A DNA stretch of 64,000 nt from Clostridiaceae bacterium (GTDB lineage: Bacteria; Bacillota; Clostridia; Acetivibrionales; DUMB01), in contig DUMB01000090.1 of the NCBI GenBank assembly GCA_012840085.1, positions 1 through 64,000 of the forward strand, read 5' to 3'. The translations under genes were made by a program, and so were the position numbers. Positions 7,423 to 18,154 of the stretch are shown one piece after another. Every line of letters starts with the position of its first letter. Positions within the stretch are counted from its first letter, which is position 1. The notes under the pieces are model-generated. The model was not told where the DNA came from and ran no database searches. It was given only the letters and a program-made list of their open reading frames with translations.

Positions 7423-9942
7423 ATGGATCCGAGAACAAGGGCTGTCCCCACAGGAAAAGCCAAAAAAAGCAAAAATAAGTCTCATTCGACGGTGAAAAAG
7501 TTTATCTTCACCGTTTTGAAGACACTTTTTATATTTTTTGTTGCACTTGCATGCGCATTGAGCGGGCTTCTGGGCGGAGCAGTACTGGGTTATTTGAAAA
7601 TGGCAAAGCCTATAAGCGATGAGGATTTGGTCACTAAAAACCTTACTACTTTTATATATGATGCAGATGGCAATGTCTTAAAGTCACTTACAGGAAAGGA
7701 CAATATTAATAGAGAATGGGCAAGCTATGATGAAATTCCCGATTACCTGAAAGAAGCTTTTATAGCTATCGAAGATGAAAGATTTTATAGTCACAGAGGT
7801 GTAGATATTAAAGGCATTTTGCGTGCCGTAACAAGAAAAATCCTTAATCCTTCAAGTAAAATGGAAGGCGGAAGTACAATAACACAACAGCTTGCCAGAA
7901 ATATAACCGGACAGACGCAGGTAACCCTGCAAAGGAAGGTTCAGGAATGGTATCAGGCATTAGACCTTGAGAAGCGTTATAAAAAATGGCAGATCCTTGA
8001 GTTATACATGAATATGGTATACTTTGGTAACAGCTATTACGGTGTAAGATCTGCTGCAAAAGGTTATTTTGGCATGGATGTTTCTGAGCTTTCCCTGGCT
8101 CAGTGTGCAATTTTGGCCGGCGTTACCAACAACCCGAGCATATACAATCCTTATACAGAAAAAGGAAGGAAAGCAGCTAAAAACAGGCAGGAAATTATTC
8201 TGCGCGTGATGCTGGAACAAGGAAAAATTGATGAAAAGCAGTATAAGCAAGCCATGTCAGAAGAAATTGTTTTCCGTGAAAAAAGCGCGGCAAAAAAGAG
8301 TACGACTACCCAGTCATATTTTATTGATCAGGTCATACTGGATGTAAAAAGAGACTTGATGGAAGAGAAAGGCTGGAGCGAAACCATGGCTCTGGCTCAA
8401 ATATACAGCGGTGGCCTCAATATTTATACTACCATGGACCCTGAGGTTCAAAGAGCATTGGACGAAGTATTTAATGACAGCAAGTATTTTATAGGAGTTG
8501 AAGAAAAGACCAAAACACTTCTTGAACATCCTGAAGCAGGCATGGTAGTAATAGATCCTGAGACAGGTGAAGTTAAAGGCATGCGTGGAGGCTATGGAGA
8601 ATTAAATGCCAGCATGACTTTAAACCGCGCTACCCAGATTCAAAGACAGCCGGGTTCAAGCTTTAAACCTATAGCCGTATATGCTCCGGCTCTTGATTTG
8701 CATAAAATTACTCCTGCTACAGTTTATGATGACGTTGCTGTATACTACGGTACCGGCAAAAATAAAAATAAACCTTATCCCAACAACTATGATCATACAT
8801 ACGGAGGTCTCACAACCATCCGCAATGCCGTCAAGAGATCCGTCAATGTTGTTGCAGCTCTGGTCTGGATGGACATCGGACCCGATCAATCCCTTTCCTA
8901 TTTGAAAAAGGTAGGCATTGACAGGTCTGAAGAGAGATATCTCTCAATTGCTATGGGCGGTCTTAATAAAGGAGTAAGCCCTCTGCAAATGGCTGCGTCA
9001 TATGTGCCCTTTGTTCATAAAGGTATGTATTTTGAACCCGCAACATATACAAAGGTAGTGGACAGCAACGGAAAGACTGTTCTTGAGAAGAAACCCAAAT
9101 ACGAAACTGTTTATGATGAAAGAACTGCTTATCTCATGACCAATATTCTTAGGGATGTAACAAGCAGTCCGGGCGGTACCGCATATGGCGGAGGTATCAT
9201 AAAAAACGGCGAAGGTAAAGTAATTCCCACTGCCGGAAAGACCGGGACAACCAGTGATGACAAGGATAAATGGTTTGTCGGCTTTTCCCCCTATTATGTA
9301 GCTGCAACATGGTATGGCTATGACCACCCCAGACAGCTTGTCGGTAATGAGCGAAGCCAGGCACTTATTATATGGCATGATGTTATGGAGAAAATTCACA
9401 AGGACAAAGAGCCTGTTGATTTTGAGCAGCCTTCAGGCATCGTCAAAAAACCGGTATGTATTTATTCCGGTAAAACTCCGTCAGCTCTCTGCTCTCAGGA
9501 CCCTAGAGGCAATGCCGTAAGGGAAGAATACTTCATTAAAGGCACGGAGCCAAAATCCAATGAAATATGTGATGTGCATGTTTCAGCAAAAGTATGTACG
9601 CATAGTCAGGATGCCTGGGGCAGGAATCTTCTGGCAGGGCCCTACTGCCCGGATGAATCTGTGGTGGAAAAAGTCTTTATCCAGCGCACTACACCTTATG
9701 TACCTAAGATGGTAGACGAAAAAGCTCCTAAAGACTTGCATTATGAACTGCCTGCAGGAGAATACTGTCCAATACATGGTGAGCCTGCACACAGAACAAC
9801 GTTTCCGGCAGGAAACAGCGGTAATATTCAAAATGAAAGCGGCTCCGGTGAAAATGAGTCACATACAGATGAGACACAGGAAGACGAGGATTTCAATAGT
9901 TTTTTCCATAGAATACTTGAAGGGCTTAATTTCATAGATTAA
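7423..9942 (+). CDS. Class A penicillin-binding protein (PBP1A-type, bifunctional)
   Basis: 839-aa bifunctional peptidoglycan synthase. A Lys-rich cytoplasmic tail (~10-26) and membrane anchor (~28-58) precede the GT51 glycosyltransferase domain, with catalytic E117 in IEDERFYSHRGVD and GGSTITQQLARN (~149-160). The transpeptidase domain has the S412-S-F-K415 nucleophile motif, S473-V-N475 and K606-T-G608, so all catalytic motifs are intact. The C terminus (~690-800) adds a Cys-containing extension and an acidic, Asn/Glu-rich tail. AAGGAGG lies 7 bases before ATG 7423. The gene is monocistronic and ends at a bidirectional terminator shared with convergent proA. Confidence 0.95.
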   Translation: MDPRTRAVPTGKAKKSKNKSHSTVKKFIFTVLKTLFIFFVALACALSGLLGGAVLGYLKMAKPISDEDLVTKNLTTFIYDADGNVLKSLTGKDNINREWASYDEIPDYLKEAFIAIEDERFYSHRGVDIKGILRAVTRKILNPSSKMEGGSTITQQLARNITGQTQVTLQRKVQEWYQALDLEKRYKKWQILELYMNMVYFGNSYYGVRSAAKGYFGMDVSELSLAQCAILAGVTNNPSIYNPYTEKGRKAAKNRQEIILRVMLEQGKIDEKQYKQAMSEEIVFREKSAAKKSTTTQSYFIDQVILDVKRDLMEEKGWSETMALAQIYSGGLNIYTTMDPEVQRALDEVFNDSKYFIGVEEKTKTLLEHPEAGMVVIDPETGEVKGMRGGYGELNASMTLNRATQIQRQPGSSFKPIAVYAPALDLHKITPATVYDDVAVYYGTGKNKNKPYPNNYDHTYGGLTTIRNAVKRSVNVVAALVWMDIGPDQSLSYLKKVGIDRSEERYLSIAMGGLNKGVSPLQMAASYVPFVHKGMYFEPATYTKVVDSNGKTVLEKKPKYETVYDERTAYLMTNILRDVTSSPGGTAYGGGIIKNGEGKVIPTAGKTGTTSDDKDKWFVGFSPYYVAATWYGYDHPRQLVGNERSQALIIWHDVMEKIHKDKEPVDFEQPSGIVKKPVCIYSGKTPSALCSQDPRGNAVREEYFIKGTEPKSNEICDVHVSAKVCTHSQDAWGRNLLAGPYCPDESVVEKVFIQRTTPYVPKMVDEKAPKDLHYELPAGEYCPIHGEPAHRTTFPAGNSGNIQNESGSGENESHTDETQEDEDFNSFFHRILEGLNFID

Positions 9943-10007
9943 TGGGATTAATTGTTCCATTGGATAAAGTACAGGATAATGTGATCGATCGTTTAATACG
10001 GGATGAC

Positions 10008-10117
10008 GTATAAAATTAGTTGTATATAATTAAATTGCATATAAGGTTAAATTACATATAAAGTTAATCGCGTATAAAATTAATTGCATTAAAAATTTGC
10101 TGCATAAAAAATCACCT
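10008..10117. repeat. Degenerate 14-17 bp tandem repeats downstream of the PBP gene
   Basis: About seven contiguous units built on GCATATAANGTTAAATT occupy the spacer after the penicillin-binding protein stop, running into the terminator. Units differ in length by 1-3 bases and share no sequence with the arrays at other loci. Confidence 0.6.
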
Positions 10118-10168
10118 TTCCTTTAAATAGTAGCTTGAACAACTCTATTATACCGGAAAGGTGATTTT
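10108..10168. terminator. Bidirectional intrinsic terminator between pbp and proA
   Basis: Perfect 14-bp inverted arms (10108-10121, AAAATCACCTTTCC; 10155-10168) enclose a 33-base loop. T-rich runs follow on both strands (TTTTCTTTATTTTTATC on plus, TTTTTT on minus), fitting termination of the two convergent genes. Confidence 0.85.
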
Positions 10169-10185
10169 CTTTATTTTTATCTTTT

Positions 10186-11430
10186 TTATCTTATTTGTCC
10201 GCTGCCATATATAATATACTTGGTTGTGGTCAATTCCTTGAGTCCCATGGGACCTCTTGCATGCAGCTTTTGGTTGCTGATACCTATTTCAGCTCCGAAA
10301 CCAAACTCAAAACCGTCTGTAAACCTTGTTGAGGCATTTACATATACAGCTGATGCATCAACTTCCCGCAGAAATCTTTGAGCCTTGCTGTAGTTTTCCG
10401 TAACTATTGCCTCGGAGTGGTGTGTTCCGTACTTGTTTATGTGTTCAATTGCTTCATCGATGCCCTTGACAATTTTTACTGCAAGAATATAGCCCAGGTA
10501 CTCGGTATACCAGTCTTCCTCTGTCGCAGCCTTTGCGTCCTCGAACAGCTCAAGCGTTCTTTCGCATCCCCTTATTTCCACCTTTAAGTCCCGTAACGTC
10601 TTAAGGGCTTGAGGAATAAATCTTTCCGCTATGGCCTCATCTACCAGCAATGTTTCCGCTGCATTGCAAACTCCAGGCCTTTGTGTCTTGGCGTTGACAA
10701 TTATTCTTTCGCCCATTTCAAGATCCGCATCTCCATCCACATAGACATGGCAATTTCCTTCCCCTGTTGCTATGACCGGTATGGTGGAATTCTGTATCAC
10801 GGACTGTATCAATCCTGCTCCACCTCTTGGGATAAGTACATCTATATACTTGTTCAGCTTCATCATCTCATTTACTGTTTCCCTGCTGGTGTCTTCTACA
10901 AGCTGAACTGTGCCGTCAGGCATTTGTGCTTCATCAAGTGCCTCTTTTATTATGGATACAATAGCCTTGTTTGAATTGATTGCTTCGCTTCCGCCTCTGA
11001 GAATAACTGCGTTTCCTGACTTGAGACACAATGCCGCTGCGTCAACGGTAACATTCGGCCTGGCTTCATATATAATTCCTATAACGCCTATCGGCACACG
11101 CTGTTGGCCTATCTGTAGCCCATTAGGTCTTCTCCACATTGATACCACTTCTCCCACCGGGTCAGGCAGAGAAATAATTTGCTCCACTCCCTCAGCCATG
11201 GCCTTTATCCTCTGGCTGTTGAGAGTCAGCCTGTCTATCAGCGCTCCCGTTATTCCTTTGGCTTTTGCATTTTCAAGATCCATTGCGTTTGCCTTCAGTA
11301 TCTCTTCACTTCTTTCCAAAAGCTTGACTGCAACTTTTTGCAGTGCATTGTTTTTTGCTGTAGAATTAAGTACTGCCAGTCTGTAAGAAGCCTTTTTTGC
11401 TTTTTCGCCCATTAATTCCAGCTTACTCAT
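10186..11430 (-). CDS. proA: Gamma-glutamyl phosphate reductase
   Basis: NADPH-dependent reductase converting gamma-glutamyl phosphate to glutamate-5-semialdehyde, second step of proline synthesis. The 414-aa protein has the aldehyde-dehydrogenase-like fold: IGVIGIIYEARPNVTVDA (~115-132), the catalytic Cys in RPGVCNAAETLL (~255) and the family C-terminal GLKELTTTKYIIYGSGQIR. The ORF could begin at GTG 11439, but this lies 2 bases after the GGGAGG ribosome site; ATG 11430, 11 bases away, is preferred and overlaps the end of proB by 8 bases, implying translational coupling. Confidence 0.95.
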   Translation of the reverse strand: MSKLELMGEKAKKASYRLAVLNSTAKNNALQKVAVKLLERSEEILKANAMDLENAKAKGITGALIDRLTLNSQRIKAMAEGVEQIISLPDPVGEVVSMWRRPNGLQIGQQRVPIGVIGIIYEARPNVTVDAAALCLKSGNAVILRGGSEAINSNKAIVSIIKEALDEAQMPDGTVQLVEDTSRETVNEMMKLNKYIDVLIPRGGAGLIQSVIQNSTIPVIATGEGNCHVYVDGDADLEMGERIIVNAKTQRPGVCNAAETLLVDEAIAERFIPQALKTLRDLKVEIRGCERTLELFEDAKAATEEDWYTEYLGYILAVKIVKGIDEAIEHINKYGTHHSEAIVTENYSKAQRFLREVDASAVYVNASTRFTDGFEFGFGAEIGISNQKLHARGPMGLKELTTTKYIIYGSGQIR

Positions 11431-12262
11431 TTTTTTCACATCCTCCCTTCTTCGCTACAAACATAGTTCCAACTTTCTCTCCGTTTAAAATTTTGAGAAT
11501 TACGCCTGGGTCTTTCCCATTGGCAAGAACCATATTAATGCCTGCAGATGTAACTATCCTGGCTGCCGATAACTTGGTGATCATTCCGCCTGTTCCCCTT
11601 TTCGTTCCGGCTCCGCCGGCACATTTCTCAATTTCAGGAGTTATATCCTCAATAGTGGATATCAGATTGAAACAGGAATTCTTTTTAGGATCGCAATCAT
11701 AGAAGCCGTCTATATCTGAAAGTATTATGAGCACGTCGGCTTTCACAAGCTTTGAAACTATGGCGGACAATGTGTCATTATCACCAAAAACCCTGTGTTC
11801 TCCGTATTCAATCTCGTCTATTGAGACGGAGTCATTTTCATTGACTATTGGAACAATACCCAGCTCTATTAAAGTTTCAAATGTGTTTATTACGTTCTGC
11901 CTTCTGTGGTCATTGTCAACAACGTCTCTGGTAAGAAGTATTTGAGCAACCACATGTCCGTATTCGGAAAAAAACTTACTGTACATGTGCATTAACTCAC
12001 ACTGTCCCACAGCTGCCACTGCCTGCTTTTCACGTACTGTTTTGGGCTTTCCTCTGAATTTTAATTTTCCCACTCCTACACCTATCGCTCCTGAAGACAC
12101 CAAAACTATCTCTTTGTCCTGATTGAGCAAATCCGACAAAACTCTTGCAAGTTTGTCCATAGTTCCTAAATTAGTCTTTCCATTGTCATAGGTCAGGGTG
12201 GAAGTTCCCACCTTTACAACTATCCTCTTTGCCTCACGCAAAATACTTCTGTCATCACACAT
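11423..12262 (-). CDS. proB: Glutamate 5-kinase
   Basis: ATP-dependent kinase phosphorylating the gamma-carboxyl of glutamate, first committed step of proline synthesis and the usual point of proline feedback inhibition. The 279-aa length fits the short form made only of the amino-acid kinase domain; the C-terminal PUA domain is absent. Visible motifs: VVKVGTSTLT (~14-23), VLVSSGAIGVGV (~53-64), the EL-rich FETLIELGIVPIVNENDSV (~132) and GTKRGTGGMITKLSAARI (~215). A GAGGGG ribosome site precedes ATG 12262. It is the first gene of a proB-proA operon whose last codons carry the proA ribosome site. Confidence 0.95.
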   Translation of the reverse strand: MCDDRSILREAKRIVVKVGTSTLTYDNGKTNLGTMDKLARVLSDLLNQDKEIVLVSSGAIGVGVGKLKFRGKPKTVREKQAVAAVGQCELMHMYSKFFSEYGHVVAQILLTRDVVDNDHRRQNVINTFETLIELGIVPIVNENDSVSIDEIEYGEHRVFGDNDTLSAIVSKLVKADVLIILSDIDGFYDCDPKKNSCFNLISTIEDITPEIEKCAGGAGTKRGTGGMITKLSAARIVTSAGINMVLANGKDPGVILKILNGEKVGTMFVAKKGGCEKNE

Positions 12263-12485
12263 AGCTTTACCCCTCTTACTGTAATTCCTTTCTTTTACAT
12301 ATACCCGAAGTTTTACAGGTTCCTGCAGTATTCATAAACCATAGCTTCAGGGTCTATATCGCAGAAAAAATTTACTTTTTATCCTAATAATTATCCTAAT
12401 GAATAATTATCCTGACAATTTTCTTACAATTATACACCAAATTCAGGTTTCTTGCATCAATATTTATACATTCAAATATGTAACA

Positions 12486-12509
12486 ATATTATGTTGTTTT
12501 ACATAATAT
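12486..12509. promoter_or_regulatory. Inverted repeat upstream of the 132-aa unknown gene
   Basis: ATATTATGT and ACATAATAT form perfect 9-base arms separated by TGTTTT, ending about 6 bases before the GGTGAT ribosome site of the gene at 12527. It could be an operator or a 5' mRNA hairpin; sequence alone does not decide. Confidence 0.4.
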
Positions 12510-12526
12510 GAAAATGGTGATGTAAA

Positions 12527-12925
12527 ATGGATGATAATAAAAATAAATATGAAAAGTTGGAATACATAACAAAAGGAATTTGTGCCGCAAACAAAATCAA
12601 TGAAATGTACAATTCGAGAATTCAAACACGTGACGGATCCAGCATAATGCCGGATAGACTTGATATGCTTTGTGAAATGCTTAATATCATAGCCCAATAC
12701 TCCCCCGCTCCACAAAGCAGATTACTTGGCAATGCAGCCGATAAAAGCGCTAAATACAGTGAAGCATACAGAAATATTAAACTCCAGATAAATAATGTGA
12801 GAAGTAATGGAATGAATATAGACACAGTTATTAGCACTCTTAAATATATTAGACCCCTCCTTAGAGGACAGCAATTGCATACAATAGATAAAATCATCAG
12901 GGTTTACGATATTATTAAGTCATAA
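12527..12925 (+). CDS. Conserved-looking hypothetical protein, 132 aa
   Basis: I do not recognise this protein. It is small, mostly helical and soluble, with no signal peptide or membrane segment. Charged N-terminal residues (DDNKNKYEKLEY) are followed by helices containing DRLDMLCEMLNIIAQYSP (~43-60) and a C-terminal stretch with LKYIRPLLRGQQLHTIDKII (~103-126). ATG 12527 follows GGTGAT, and a strong hairpin terminator lies 22 bases after its stop, so it looks like a real monocistronic gene. The size and composition recall small Clostridia proteins of unknown function; no role can be assigned. Confidence 0.7.
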   Translation: MDDNKNKYEKLEYITKGICAANKINEMYNSRIQTRDGSSIMPDRLDMLCEMLNIIAQYSPAPQSRLLGNAADKSAKYSEAYRNIKLQINNVRSNGMNIDTVISTLKYIRPLLRGQQLHTIDKIIRVYDIIKS

Positions 12926-12947
12926 CTTGCCATTTTTTCCCTTACGT

Positions 12948-12990
12948 GGGGCTGTCCTAGGTTTTTAAGCTTAGGATTGCCCCCGTTTTT
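12948..12990 (+). terminator. Intrinsic terminator after the 132-aa gene
   Basis: A stem of GGGGC-TGTCCTA with TAGGATT-GCCCC (12948-12959 / 12972-12984, allowing G-U pairs) and a 10-13 base loop is followed by CGTTTTTT. Confidence 0.85.
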
Positions 12991-13042
12991 TATCCACATT
13001 TAACCGCATTTCTCTCCGTACTTATCCACATTTTTATCCATA
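12990..13042 (+). promoter_or_regulatory. Three DnaA-box-like sites in the pflB upstream region
   Basis: Two perfect matches to the consensus DnaA box TTATCCACA (12990-12998 and 13022-13030) and one single-mismatch copy TTATCCATA (13034-13042) lie in the same orientation within 53 bases, 110-165 bases before the pflB start. The matches are direct; DnaA binding and any effect on transcription or titration are inference. Confidence 0.5.
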
Positions 13043-13153
13043 TTTTTATAACTTTTTATTCAATTTATAAAACGTGTTAAGTGTTTTGGGAATGATAATA
13101 ATAAATACGAATACTTGAAATTCGAATATCTATCTGGAAGGAGAATCACTTGC

Positions 13154-15394
13154 ATGAGGCAGTTTATGGAACAATGGAAGGGATTTGCAGAAGGTAACTG
13201 GTGTTCGGAAATAGACGTGAGAAATTTCATACAACTTAATTATAAACCTTACGAGGGAGACGAAAGTTTCCTCGAAGGGCCAACAGAGAACACAAAAAAG
13301 CTGTGGGAAAAAGTAACCGATCTTTTGAATAAAGAGCGCCAAAACGGTGGAGTTCTTGATATTGACACACATACCATTTCTACAATTGTATCCCACCCAC
13401 CCGGCTATATAGATAAAGATCTCGAAAAAATAGTGGGTCTTCAAACCGATGCTCCTTTAAAGCGTGCAATAATGCCGTTTGGTGGAATACGGATGGTAAT
13501 GAAGGGCTGTGAAGCTTACGGAAAGAAACTTGACCCCAACGTGGTTAAAATCTTTACAGAATATAGAAAGACCCACAATCAGGGAGTTTATGACGTTTAT
13601 ACACCTGAAATGAGGCGGGCAAAGAAGGCCGGCATAATAACAGGTCTGCCCGATGCATACGGCAGAGGCCGGATAATAGGAGATTACCGCAGGGTTCCCC
13701 TATACGGCGTAGACAGGCTTATACGGGAAAAGGAAGCTGAGTTTGCCCATCTTGAATATGATTACATCGATGCAGATACTGTCAGGGACAGAGAGGAGCT
13801 CATGGAACAAATCAAAGCTCTTAATGAGCTTAAAAAGATGGCTGAAAGCTATGGCTTTGACATATCCAGACCTGCGGCCAATGCTCAGGAAGCAATCCAG
13901 TGGCTGTATTTTGCCTACCTGGGAGCTGTAAAGGAGCAGAATGGCGCAGCAATGAGCCTCGGCAGGGTATCAACTTTCCTGGACATTTACATTGAAAGGG
14001 ATTTAAATGAAGGTAAAATAACAGAAAAGGAAGCCCAGGAGCTTATTGACCACTTTATTATGAAACTCCGTATTGTCAGGTTCCTGAGAACTCCCGAATA
14101 TGACAGGCTGTTTAGCGGGGATCCCACATGGGTGACTGAGAGCATTGGCGGAATGAGCCTTGACGGCCGGACTCTCGTTACAAAAACATCCTTCAGAGTG
14201 CTGAATACCCTCTTCAATCTTGGGCCGGCCCCGGAACCCAATATGACAGTATTGTGGTCGGTACATCTTCCCCCCGCTTTCAAAAGATTTTGTGCCAAAG
14301 TTTCAATTAGTACCAGCTCTATACAATACGAGAGCGATGACATCATGAGGTATCATTGGGGAGATGACTATGGAATAGCCTGCTGCGTCTCGGCCATGAG
14401 AATTGGCAAACAAATGCAGTTTTTCGGTGCAAGATGCAACCTTGCAAAAGCGCTGTTGTATGCAATTAACGGCGGCCGGGATGAAATGACGGGAATACAA
14501 ATAGCTCCCAAATTTGCCCCGGTGGATACGGAGTACCTGGACTACGATGATGTAATGGAGCGTTTCGACATGGTCCTTGATTGGGTTGCAAGGCTTTATA
14601 TGAACACCCTTAATATAATACACTATATGCATGACAAATACGCGTATGAAAGGCTGCAGATGGCCCTTCACGACCGCGAGGTTTTCCGTACCATGGCATG
14701 CGGTATTGCAGGACTATCCGTTGTGGCAGACTCATTAAGTGCAATAAAATACGCAAAAGTCAAGCCAATAAGAAACGAAAACAATCTGGTGGTGGACTAT
14801 GAAGTTGAAGGAGATTATCCGAAATTCGGAAATAATGATGACCGCGTAGATGATATTGCTACAGAAATAGTGCGAATGTTCATGAATAAGCTCCGCAAGC
14901 AGAGGTCATACAGGAATTCAATACCCACCCTATCCATTCTCACTATAACATCAAATGTTGTGTATGGTGAAAAAACAGGCAATACACCTGACGGAAGAAA
15001 AAAGGGCGAGCCCCTGGCGCCCGGAGCAAACCCCATGCATGGAAGGGATATAAATGGAGCCCTTGCCGTTTTAAATTCTATTGCTAAACTTCCTTACGAG
15101 TATGCACAGGACGGTATTTCATATACCTTCTCCATTACACCTAAAGCACTGGGACGAGAGGAAGCTCAGCGTGTTGACAATCTTGTAGCCCTTCTTGACG
15201 GGTATTTCCACCAGGGTGGCCACCATATAAATGTAAACGTATTTGAAAGACAAACGCTACTTGACGCCATGGAACATCCTGAAAAATATCCGCAGCTTAC
15301 TATAAGGGTATCGGGATATGCAGTCAATTTCATCAAGCTTACAAGAGAGCAACAGCTGGATGTAATTAACAGGACCATCCATGAGCTTATCTAG
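13154..15394 (+). CDS. pflB: Formate C-acetyltransferase (pyruvate formate-lyase)
   Basis: Glycyl-radical enzyme splitting pyruvate with CoA into acetyl-CoA and formate during anaerobic sugar fermentation. From ATG 13154 it has 746 aa, the normal length. The adjacent active-site cysteines are in [10 protein letters not shown] (~C410-C411) and the radical glycine is in RVSGYAVNF (~G721). The ORF extends upstream to TTG 13115, but the ribosome site GGAAGGAG (13136-13143) falls inside that extension and points to 13154 (or ATG 13166). pflA follows with only 13 bases from stop to start. The activase confirms a true PFL rather than a choline- or glycerol-type lyase. Confidence 0.95.
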
Positions 15395-15407
15395 TACGGT
15401 GATAGAT

Positions 15408-16145
15408 ATGATAAAAGGCAGAATTCACTCTTTTGAAAGCTTTGGAGCCCTTGATGGTCCCGGCATACGTTTTGTCGTATTCATGCAGGGATGCCCTCTG
15501 AGATGTCTCTACTGCCATAACAGGGATACCTGGAATATGTCAGGCGGAAAAGAGTATACATCGGACGAGGTTTTCAACGAAGTGAAAAAGTACATGAACT
15601 ACCTTAAATTTTCAGGCGGGGGAATTACAGTGACAGGCGGTGAGCCTACCCTGCAGGCAGAATTTGTAACAGACCTGTTTAAAAAATGTAAGAAAGCCGG
15701 TATTCATACCGCTCTGGATACATCAGGTTTCGCTGATATTGATAAGGTAAAGGAACTTCTTGAGAATACGGACCTGGTTCTTCTGGATATAAAGCATGGT
15801 ATAAAAGAAAAGCATAAGAAGCTAACAGGTGTAAGCAATGACAAAATTATTGAGTTTGCTTACTACCTCTGCGAAAAAAATATACCCGTCTGGATACGCT
15901 ATGTACTTGTACCGGGTTACACAGATGCCCCTGAAGATTTGGAAAGTGCAGCTGCCATTATCGGTAAACTGAAAAATGTTCAAAAAGTTGAGGTGCTTCC
16001 CTACCACTGTATGGGGGCCTATAAATGGGACAAGCTTGGCTACGAATATACTCTTGAAGGTGTACGCGAGCCTACTTCCGAAGAGATCGCAAGGGCTTCA
16101 AAAATCCTTTCAGAGCCGTTGAAGAGACCTTTCAAGAACCATTAA
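15408..16145 (+). CDS. pflA: Pyruvate formate-lyase activating enzyme (radical SAM)
   Basis: Installs the glycyl radical in PflB using SAM and a 4Fe-4S cluster. The cluster motif C29-x3-C33-x2-C36 lies in GCPLRCLYCHN, followed by the SAM-binding stretch GGGITVTGGEPTLQ (~65-78) and LLDIKHG (~128). The open frame starts at ATG 15381 inside pflB, but GGTGAT (15399-15404) lies just before ATG 15408, giving 245 aa, the usual size. There are no extra ferredoxin-type cysteines between strands, consistent with a PFL activase rather than other glycyl-radical activases. It forms an operon with pflB. Confidence 0.95.
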   Translation: MIKGRIHSFESFGALDGPGIRFVVFMQGCPLRCLYCHNRDTWNMSGGKEYTSDEVFNEVKKYMNYLKFSGGGITVTGGEPTLQAEFVTDLFKKCKKAGIHTALDTSGFADIDKVKELLENTDLVLLDIKHGIKEKHKKLTGVSNDKIIEFAYYLCEKNIPVWIRYVLVPGYTDAPEDLESAAAIIGKLKNVQKVEVLPYHCMGAYKWDKLGYEYTLEGVREPTSEEIARASKILSEPLKRPFKNH

Positions 16146-16205
16146 AGCAGTAGCAAAATAAGTTAACGCAGTGTTTAATAGAACTAAACAAATTTTCTTC
16201 ATTTT

Positions 16206-16240
16206 AAACCTATTTTTTAAAAGAACAGGTTTCTTCTTTT
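16206..16240 (+). terminator. Weak intrinsic terminator after pflBA
   Basis: AAACCT (16206-16211) pairs with AGGTTT (16227-16232) and is followed by CTTCTTTT. The short stem makes this a weak candidate. The rest of 16146-16360 shows nothing else. Confidence 0.45.
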
Positions 16241-16360
16241 ATGCACCTGAAAATATTTTGTTAAATTTCTGTGTCACAATATTATGTTAGCGCCCTGCAA
16301 CCCTTGTAATCAAAAGCATTGCCGCCCTTCTGAAATATTTAATTTTTTTTGAAAAACATG

Positions 16361-16390
16361 TTGACTTTATGTCTAGTATGTGTTTATAAT
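16361..16390 (+). promoter_or_regulatory. Sigma-A promoter of the regulator-potABCD operon
   Basis: TTGACT (16361-16366) and a perfect TATAAT (16385-16390) are separated by 18 bases. Transcription should begin near 16397, just before an inverted repeat. Confidence 0.8.
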
Positions 16391-16402
16391 AAGATGTTTT
16401 GT

Positions 16403-16423
16403 AAGTTTAGTCACTGTAAACTT
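16403..16423. promoter_or_regulatory. Candidate operator overlapping the pot operon start site
   Basis: Perfect arms AAGTTTA and TAAACTT separated by 7 bases lie directly after the predicted start of transcription. A related half-site, AACTAAAC, occurs at 16440-16447. The position suits repression by the adjacent XRE/cupin protein (autoregulation); this is inference. Confidence 0.5.
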
Positions 16424-16477
16424 GGTGTTTAAAAATAACGAACTAAACCTGTTACTTTTTTTGAAAAGGGTGTTATT

Positions 16478-17017
16478 ATGAAAATCGGTGAAAAAATAAA
16501 GCGCTTAAGGATAAAAAACTCTCTTACACAGGAAGAACTGGCAAACAGATGTGAATTGTCGAAAGGTTTTATTTCTCAGATAGAGCGTGATCTCACATCA
16601 CCTTCTATAGCAACTTTGGTAGATATACTTCAGTGTCTGGGAACAAACCTTAAGGATTTCTTCAACGAACCAACAGATGAAGCAATTGTATTTGGCAAAG
16701 ATGATATATTTGTAAAACAGGACTTCGAACTTAATCATGAGATAAAGTGGCTTGTACCCAATTCCACCAAAAACCTTATGGAACCAATAATAATAACTTT
16801 GGAAGCCGGCGGAAGGTCGGAGATTGATAATCCCCACGAAGGTGAGGAATTCGGGTATGTATTTTCGGGAAGCATATATATACACCTTGGAAATACTAAA
16901 CGCAGGGTAAAAAAGGATGAGAGCTTTTATTTTAAACCGACGATGATTCACCATATATCAAATGCAGGTAAAACCAAAGCAAATGTTTTGTGGGTTTCAA
17001 CACCGCCAAGTTTTTAG
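16478..17017 (+). CDS. XRE-family regulator with C-terminal cupin (PuuR-like)
   Basis: 179-aa DNA-binding regulator. An N-terminal helix-turn-helix of the Cro/C1 type (~1-62: IKRLRIKNSLTQEELANRC, KGFISQIERD) is joined to a C-terminal cupin_2 barrel (~105-175: ITLEAGGRSE, HEGEEFGYVFSGSIYIHLG, FYFKPTMIHHISNAG). The cupin probably senses a small ligand; proteins of this design next to potABCD are generally thought to regulate polyamine uptake. It is the first gene of the operon, 90 bases ahead of potA, with a sigma-A promoter and an inverted repeat in front. Spermidine or putrescine as effector is inference from the neighbours. Confidence 0.9.
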   Translation: MKIGEKIKRLRIKNSLTQEELANRCELSKGFISQIERDLTSPSIATLVDILQCLGTNLKDFFNEPTDEAIVFGKDDIFVKQDFELNHEIKWLVPNSTKNLMEPIIITLEAGGRSEIDNPHEGEEFGYVFSGSIYIHLGNTKRRVKKDESFYFKPTMIHHISNAGKTKANVLWVSTPPSF

Positions 17018-17107
17018 ATATTGAACAATAATTGAACTGATCGGTCTTTTGCCGAATCATCGGGCAAGATAAGCTCGCCTAACTTGCTGAAAACGGGGGG
17101 ATGCGCA

Positions 17108-18154
17108 ATGTCGGAGAATATTATTGAACTGATAAATATTTCAAAAGATTATGATGGAGCTGAAGCTCTTAAAGATGTCAGTCTTACTATAAAAAAGAAT
17201 GAGTTTGTGACGCTATTAGGTCCCAGCGGTTGCGGTAAAACAACGACACTCAGGATTATTGCAGGATTTGAAAACCCGACGGAAGGGACTATCCTTTTTG
17301 AGGGGCAAAACATAAACTCACTTCCGCCCTATAAAAGAAAAGTTAATACTGTGTTTCAGAGGTACGCTCTCTTTACTCACATGAACGTTTTTGAGAATGT
17401 TGCCTTTGGCCTGAGAATTAAAAAATTTGATAATAAGACAATAAAGGAAAAAGTAAGCAATGTTCTTCACATGGTAAATCTGTCAGGCTATGAAAAAAGA
17501 TCCGTAGATTCCTTAAGCGGTGGTCAGCAGCAGAGAGTGGCTATTGCAAGAGCGCTTGTCAACGAACCCCAGGTTCTATTACTGGATGAACCTCTTGCAG
17601 CTCTTGACCTCAAGCTTAGAAAAGAAATGCAGATTGAATTGAAACAAATGCAAAAACGTCTCGGAATCACTTTTGTATATGTCACTCATGATCAGGAGGA
17701 AGCCCTCACAATGTCTGATACCATTGTGGTAATGCGTGACGGATCTATTCAGCAGATAGGAACTCCTGTAGAAATATACAATGAGCCTAAGAATGCTTTC
17801 GTTGCAGACTTTATAGGTGAAAGCAATATTATCGACGGTACTATGCTGAGAGATTACCTTGTGCGTTTTGCAGGACATGACTTCGAATGTGTGGATAAAG
17901 GCTTTGGCGAAAATAAGGAAGTAGACGTTGTAGTCCGCCCTGAAGACATTAAAATCACCCGTGAAGAAGATGGAATGCTTAAAGGTGTAATAAAATCTGT
18001 AACTTTCAAAGGTGTTCATTATGAGATGATTGCTGAGGCAAACGGAGTACAGTGGATTATACACAGTACTGCCATGAGTCCCGTAGATTCCAGAGTCGGG
18101 CTGTGCATACATCCAAATGATATCCAGATAATGGAGAAGGTGGTGTCGGAATGA
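17108..18154 (+). CDS. potA: Spermidine/putrescine ABC transporter, ATP-binding protein
   Basis: Cytoplasmic ATPase (348 aa) powering polyamine import. Walker A is GPSGCGKTT (~38-46), the Q-loop is in VFQRYALF, the signature is LSGGQQQR (~136) and Walker B is [11 protein letters not shown], followed by the H-loop [10 protein letters not shown]-terminal TOBE-like regulatory region occupies ~240-348. The ORF opens at TTG 17084, but the GGGGGG ribosome site (17095-17100) lies within that stretch, so ATG 17108 is used. The stop overlaps the potB start (ATGA). Substrate is inferred from the whole operon and the PotD homology. Confidence 0.93.

Follow-up and report, generated by a model that had tools for sequence, protein, structure and literature searches.

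What do closely spaced DnaA boxes do in front of a fermentation gene? The question is raised by a locus in a 64,000-nucleotide stretch of DNA from a Clostridiaceae bacterium, hereafter the window, which lies on contig C85 of a draft genome of 4.09 Mb in 108 contigs. Two perfect boxes, TTATCCACA, where perfect means identical to what we take to be the DnaA box consensus, were found by word match on the + strand at 12990..12998 and 13022..13030, the second starting 32 bp after the first. A sequence-only reading had placed them correctly, in letters, position and strand, together with a third motif, TTATCCATA (13034..13042, +), and had offered a tie between fermentation and replication, the titration of DnaA, or a remnant of an origin as possible roles.

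The two perfect boxes sit between a terminator-like hairpin (12944..12986, +, from the centroid fold), which is followed by a T run from which box 1 continues, and pflB, which encodes pyruvate formate-lyase (13154..15394, +; an ORF with Pfam PFL-like and Gly_radical matches). They lie 124-164 bp before the start codon of pflB, for which we chose the ATG at 13154, after GGAAGGAG, the listed start of the ORF being 13115. Among the best 80 named records, from which records of the same genome may have been excluded, the closest pflB is that of Acetivibrio straminisolvens (83%). The next ORF (15381..16145, +; Pfam Radical_SAM and Fer4_12) encodes a PFL-activating radical SAM enzyme and, given its position, is presumably pflA. 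On the other side of the hairpin, which was not flagged by a consensus terminator scan, an ORF of 132 amino acids (12527..12925, +) has no Pfam match at E 0.001. No described RNA element reached gathering scores in positions 12000-16000. The GC skew of the window is steadily negative from 24001 to 64000 (-0.15 to -0.22 per 4 kb) and mixed before 24 kb.

The number of boxes had to be settled first, as the sequence-only reading counted three. The yardstick for box variants consisted of two sets of 30 loci, with 700 bp per locus (41.9 kb in all), taken upstream of the ribosome hibernation-factor gene hpf and beyond tsaD, and the background of the opposite sides of these two genes plus the regions upstream of pflB and of the pyruvate:ferredoxin oxidoreductase (PFOR) gene in other genomes (81.4 kb). 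The perfect word TTATCCACA occurs 124 times in the yardstick and never in the background, from which TTATTCACA (68 copies in the yardstick) and TAATCCACA (30) are absent as well; ATATCCACA (22 copies vs 2), TTTTCCACA (17 vs 1) and TTATACACA (13 vs 2) are also enriched, these copies being non-independent events since the yardstick clusters are homologous to one another. Conversely, TTATCCATA has no copy in the yardstick and 2 in the background. It is also part of a 12-bp tandem repeat of 2.3 copies (13022..13049, +, Tandem Repeats Finder), which begins at box 2, spans both box 2 and TTATCCATA, and leaves box 1 outside. In view of these counts and of the repeat, TTATCCATA is probably not a DnaA box, and we count two boxes at the locus, not three. 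We also considered whether the pair is surrounded by weak boxes at intervals of 10-12 bp, and dropped the idea, given that a search with up to 2 mismatches gave just one more site, TTAACCGCA at 13000.

Two perfect boxes at this distance are not a chance association. The window as a whole has no excess of boxes, neither at up to 1 mismatch (21 matches for 20.9 expected) nor for the word TTWTNCACA (8 for 9.1 expected). The exact word is found 83 times in the genome, 33 on the + strand and 50 on the - strand, against 46 for the reversed pattern, and there are 4 same-strand exact pairs with a gap of 0-30 against none for the reversed control; by simple arithmetic, a random spread of the 33 and 50 boxes would give about 0.03 such pairs. 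The same trend holds in 58 genomes of the order, with 34 same-strand exact pairs against 1 in the control, and in 391 genomes of the class, of which 180 have one and 6 have a match to the control. Locally, two exact boxes did not appear in any of 5000 dinucleotide-shuffled versions of the 125 bases at 12986-13110. The statement that such clustering is unlikely in a random promoter region is thus borne out for the two perfect boxes. The excess of close pairs resides in the exact word and hardly in the relaxed one: TTATNCAYA gives 16 pairs in the genome against 10 in the control, a slight excess.

The distances between paired boxes are also restricted. Measured start to start, the 34 pairs of the order are spaced by 9 (7 pairs), 12 (3), 18 (1), 20-22 (7) or 30-32 bp (16), with no others. 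In the class we counted at least 150 pairs, and the 150 among the matches listed fall at 9-13 (53), 18-24 (58), 30-33 (21) and 36-39 bp (12), with 6 elsewhere. Few same-strand exact pairs are spaced by 14-17, 25-29 or 34-35 bp (6 of the 150 class pairs listed and none of the 34 order pairs), a pattern that in part reflects the shared ancestry of homologous sites. A fitted helical period was tried and rejected: the Rayleigh score at 10.5 bp was 0.80 for the order and 0.48 for the class, but the scores are broad, and among distinct class strings the value at 10.5 bp (0.43) is below that at 9-9.5 bp (0.47). Hence, we rely only on the contrast between filled and empty spacing classes. The 32 bp at pflB, about three helical turns, belong to a filled class, and DnaA therefore probably binds there, if weakly.

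Could the pair nevertheless be a functionless product of drift or slippage within T-rich intergenic sequence? The pair is private to this genome, the 12-bp repeat starts precisely at box 2, and relaxed words are barely enriched, all of which a neutral origin would explain. Yet box 1 lies outside the repeat, and exact pairs are far above the reversed control even when those at oriC, hpf and tsaD are set aside (11 of the 34 order pairs are elsewhere, against 1 control pair overall). The preferred spacing likewise favours genuine DnaA sites over drift. We consider a functionless pair unlikely, and a neutral origin does not exclude that DnaA binds the boxes today.

The genome encodes a DnaA of full length, DNA-binding domain included (Pfam), and the pair at pflB is one of several groups of boxes available to it. 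Eight places have at least 2 exact boxes with starts within 500 bp, on contigs C32, C69, C71, C76, C85 (the pflB pair), C90 (twice) and C91, and a ninth, on C108, comes close at 501 bp. Three of them are in places where clusters are found repeatedly across the order: the end of C90, on the dnaA side of oriC, the region upstream of hpf on C71 (exact boxes at L033 4168-4227; homologous loci L153-L182 and L267-L294), and the region on C76 between tsaD, which we take to be gcp, and an SLT-domain gene (exact boxes at L036 3177-3471; homologous loci L183-L212). Considering the best 30 loci for each gene, this genome being one of each 30, and 700 bp of sequence (upstream of hpf, beyond tsaD), 28 hpf loci and all 30 tsaD loci have one or more exact boxes, and 22 and 27, respectively, have two or more. 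Of the 34 order pairs, 12 are at oriC, 7 on the hpf side and 4 at tsaD; the remaining 11 lie elsewhere, and three of those 11 belong to this genome. When enriched variants are included, the clusters have 8 boxes on C32, 7 on C69, 5 on the dnaA side of oriC, 5 at tsaD, 4 at hpf and 3 on C91, while the pflB locus (12900-13160) and the second cluster of C90 have 2 each. The existence of recurrent homes at oriC, hpf and tsaD, next to private ones, provides a yardstick for any single finding of DnaA boxes.

Measured against this yardstick, the pair at pflB is not conserved. We placed pflB-family genes by tblastn and scanned the 700 bp upstream of them for exact boxes. The 110 loci comprise the best 30 from 40 genomes, 5 of which gave no match, and 80 named records; they include the window's own locus, two distant PFL-like proteins (L029 and L030), one or more genomes represented twice (L016 and L093) and some loci with a short upstream sequence (13 bases in L010). 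Two exact boxes were found in 1 of the 110 loci, the window's own, to be compared with the boxes at 28 of 30 hpf loci and 30 of 30 tsaD loci, and a single box in one further locus, from Pseudanabaena (L077). The sole genome of the same family that was searched (G001) lacks an orthologue of pflB (best match 32%), so the comparison is made at the level of the order or wider. Since its position is not conserved, the pair may do nothing. The absence of boxes upstream of pflB in relatives, and the presence of equal clusters across the genome, had been set in advance as outcomes that would count against the proposed roles. Both were observed, as none of the 109 other loci has two boxes and the genome contains seven more clusters of at least 2 exact boxes within 500 bp. 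These results refute a conserved role specific to pflB that would tie fermentation to replication; they do not refute DnaA binding at the locus.

A role in this genome alone would take the form of DnaA bound upstream of the promoter, raising or lowering the transcription of pflB according to how much DnaA is present or to its ATP state. The boxes lie in a promoter region, and a second private pair in the same genome adds to this. More precisely, C90 has two perfect boxes on the same strand with the identical spacing of 32 bp (exact words at C90:29709/29741; L034 3710-3750; G000:C90:29709-29749), 578-610 bp upstream of a PFOR gene (POR domains, Pfam), with no ORF of more than 52 amino acids lying wholly in between and no described RNA element beside it at gathering scores. 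Both enzymes perform the same conversion, of pyruvate to acetyl-CoA. One could thus imagine that DnaA was recruited to both oxygen-sensitive pyruvate-cleaving enzymes, the supply of acetyl-CoA following DnaA occupancy and fermentation being tied to the replication cycle. We regard this broader scheme as very improbable, the coincidence having been spotted in hindsight, among five private clusters. The PFOR pair is on the contig of oriC, some 28 kb away from the boxes on the dnaA side, and its position may therefore relate to oriC rather than to PFOR. A common descent of the two pairs was rejected, as their pairwise alignment, judged by eye, shares little besides the boxes and A/T-rich letters.

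Several observations speak against the regulation of pflB by DnaA. The pair is missing from the pflB loci of other genomes, as seen above, and the one at PFOR is just as private (no exact box in the 28 other loci with upstream sequence, out of the best 30, L231 having none) and far from the start of the gene. Among the neighbours of the 54 other pair loci that were read, there is no pflB, pflA or PFOR. We found no consensus promoter between the boxes and pflB, and the alignment of pflB upstream regions gave no confident placement of one. Control of pflB by DnaA is accordingly doubtful, although less so than the joint scheme with PFOR.

An origin, or what is left of one, would account for some traits of the locus. 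The boxes share their orientation, and nearly their spacing, with oriC pairs found in the order (30-32 bp), and the stretch 3' of them is AT-rich, with 4 G+C in the 40 bases at 13031-13070, contrary to the claim that no such element is nearby. However, dnaA and dnaN, rightly described as absent from the vicinity, are both on a separate contig, C90, together with their own boxes. Neither this gene pair nor rpmH/rnpA is beside the boxes at pflB, which adjoin other genes, and no origin-type gene is among the ORFs of 9000-18000. The letters between the two boxes, compared by eye, are also unlike those of the oriC pairs of the order, which makes a remnant unlikely too. We therefore agree with the sequence-only reading that the locus is not an origin, and find a second or degraded origin the least credible of the explanations considered here.

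We are left with a reading that we hold to be somewhat probable: the pair is a minimal DnaA-binding locus, a private and weak member of the dispersed DnaA-box clusters (DBCs) of Firmicutes, with a small share in titration and an effect on pflB that is small or absent. With about three helical turns between them, the two perfect boxes would present DnaA molecules on one face of the DNA. At a high level, DnaA would occupy both, perhaps jointly, and the pair would contribute slightly to the pool of chromosomal sites keeping DnaA away from oriC, with little or no consequence for pflB. Among the roles offered by the sequence-only reading, titration is likeliest, as a minor contribution.

Like the DBCs of Bacillus subtilis, the locus has grouped perfect boxes, closer than expected by chance, in an intergenic position away from oriC. 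Another cluster of this genome, the one beyond tsaD, is located where B. subtilis has its gcp/ydiF DnaA region (PMC4447404). In that paper (Table 1), the eight main regions of B. subtilis have 4-12 sites and an in vitro Kd of 0.13-0.33 uM, whereas regions with two sites have a Kd of 1.4-4.9 uM for the ATP form, and its authors consider the occupancy of most weaker regions in vivo unlikely. With 2 boxes instead of 4-12 sites and a position that is not conserved, the pflB pair would be a minimal DBC at best. It is closer in number of sites, and in its expected low affinity, to the two-site regions found in vitro only (for example yvmC/yvmB and rplB), and its weakness is suggested by this rough analogy, the sites of PMC4447404 having been counted there with a weight matrix over 300 bp and ours as exact words. 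As for the effect of DBCs, a review (PMC5295017) reports both that the removal of six clusters in B. subtilis advances initiation, with partial relief when one is restored, and that the clusters play no significant role in initiation.

The pair shares with datA and DARS of Escherichia coli the presence of DnaA boxes on the chromosome outside oriC, but datA measures about 1 kb and contains five boxes together with an IHF site (PMC5295017), an arrangement not seen at pflB. The promoter of sda in B. subtilis has boxes upstream of a gene, as does pflB, but there are 8 sites, and mutations in boxes lower the expression of sda (PMC4447404). As one weak site, the pflB pair matters little by itself.

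The boxes upstream of hpf are more interesting than the pflB pair, as this home suggests a testable link between the control of replication and ribosome hibernation. It extends beyond the order: of 25 out-of-order loci, two of them with a shortened upstream sequence, 13 have at least one exact box upstream of hpf and 7 have two, against 2 and none downstream. A literature search that covered few subscription papers gave no paper linking DnaA boxes to hpf, ribosome hibernation or yvyD, and one, a genome paper on Bifidobacterium dentium, for DnaA boxes together with pyruvate formate-lyase. Two private clusters were noted as well. On C32 (L031 4414-4781), eight variant-counted boxes form two groups of four, one per strand, the first with spacings of 22, 21 and 22 bp, between a LURP-one-related gene and what we presume to be a short-chain dehydrogenase-like gene. 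On C69 (L032 1186-1830), seven variant-counted boxes precede a CBS-domain gene, and the cluster includes a brief tandem run, TATAGTTTCAAATA.
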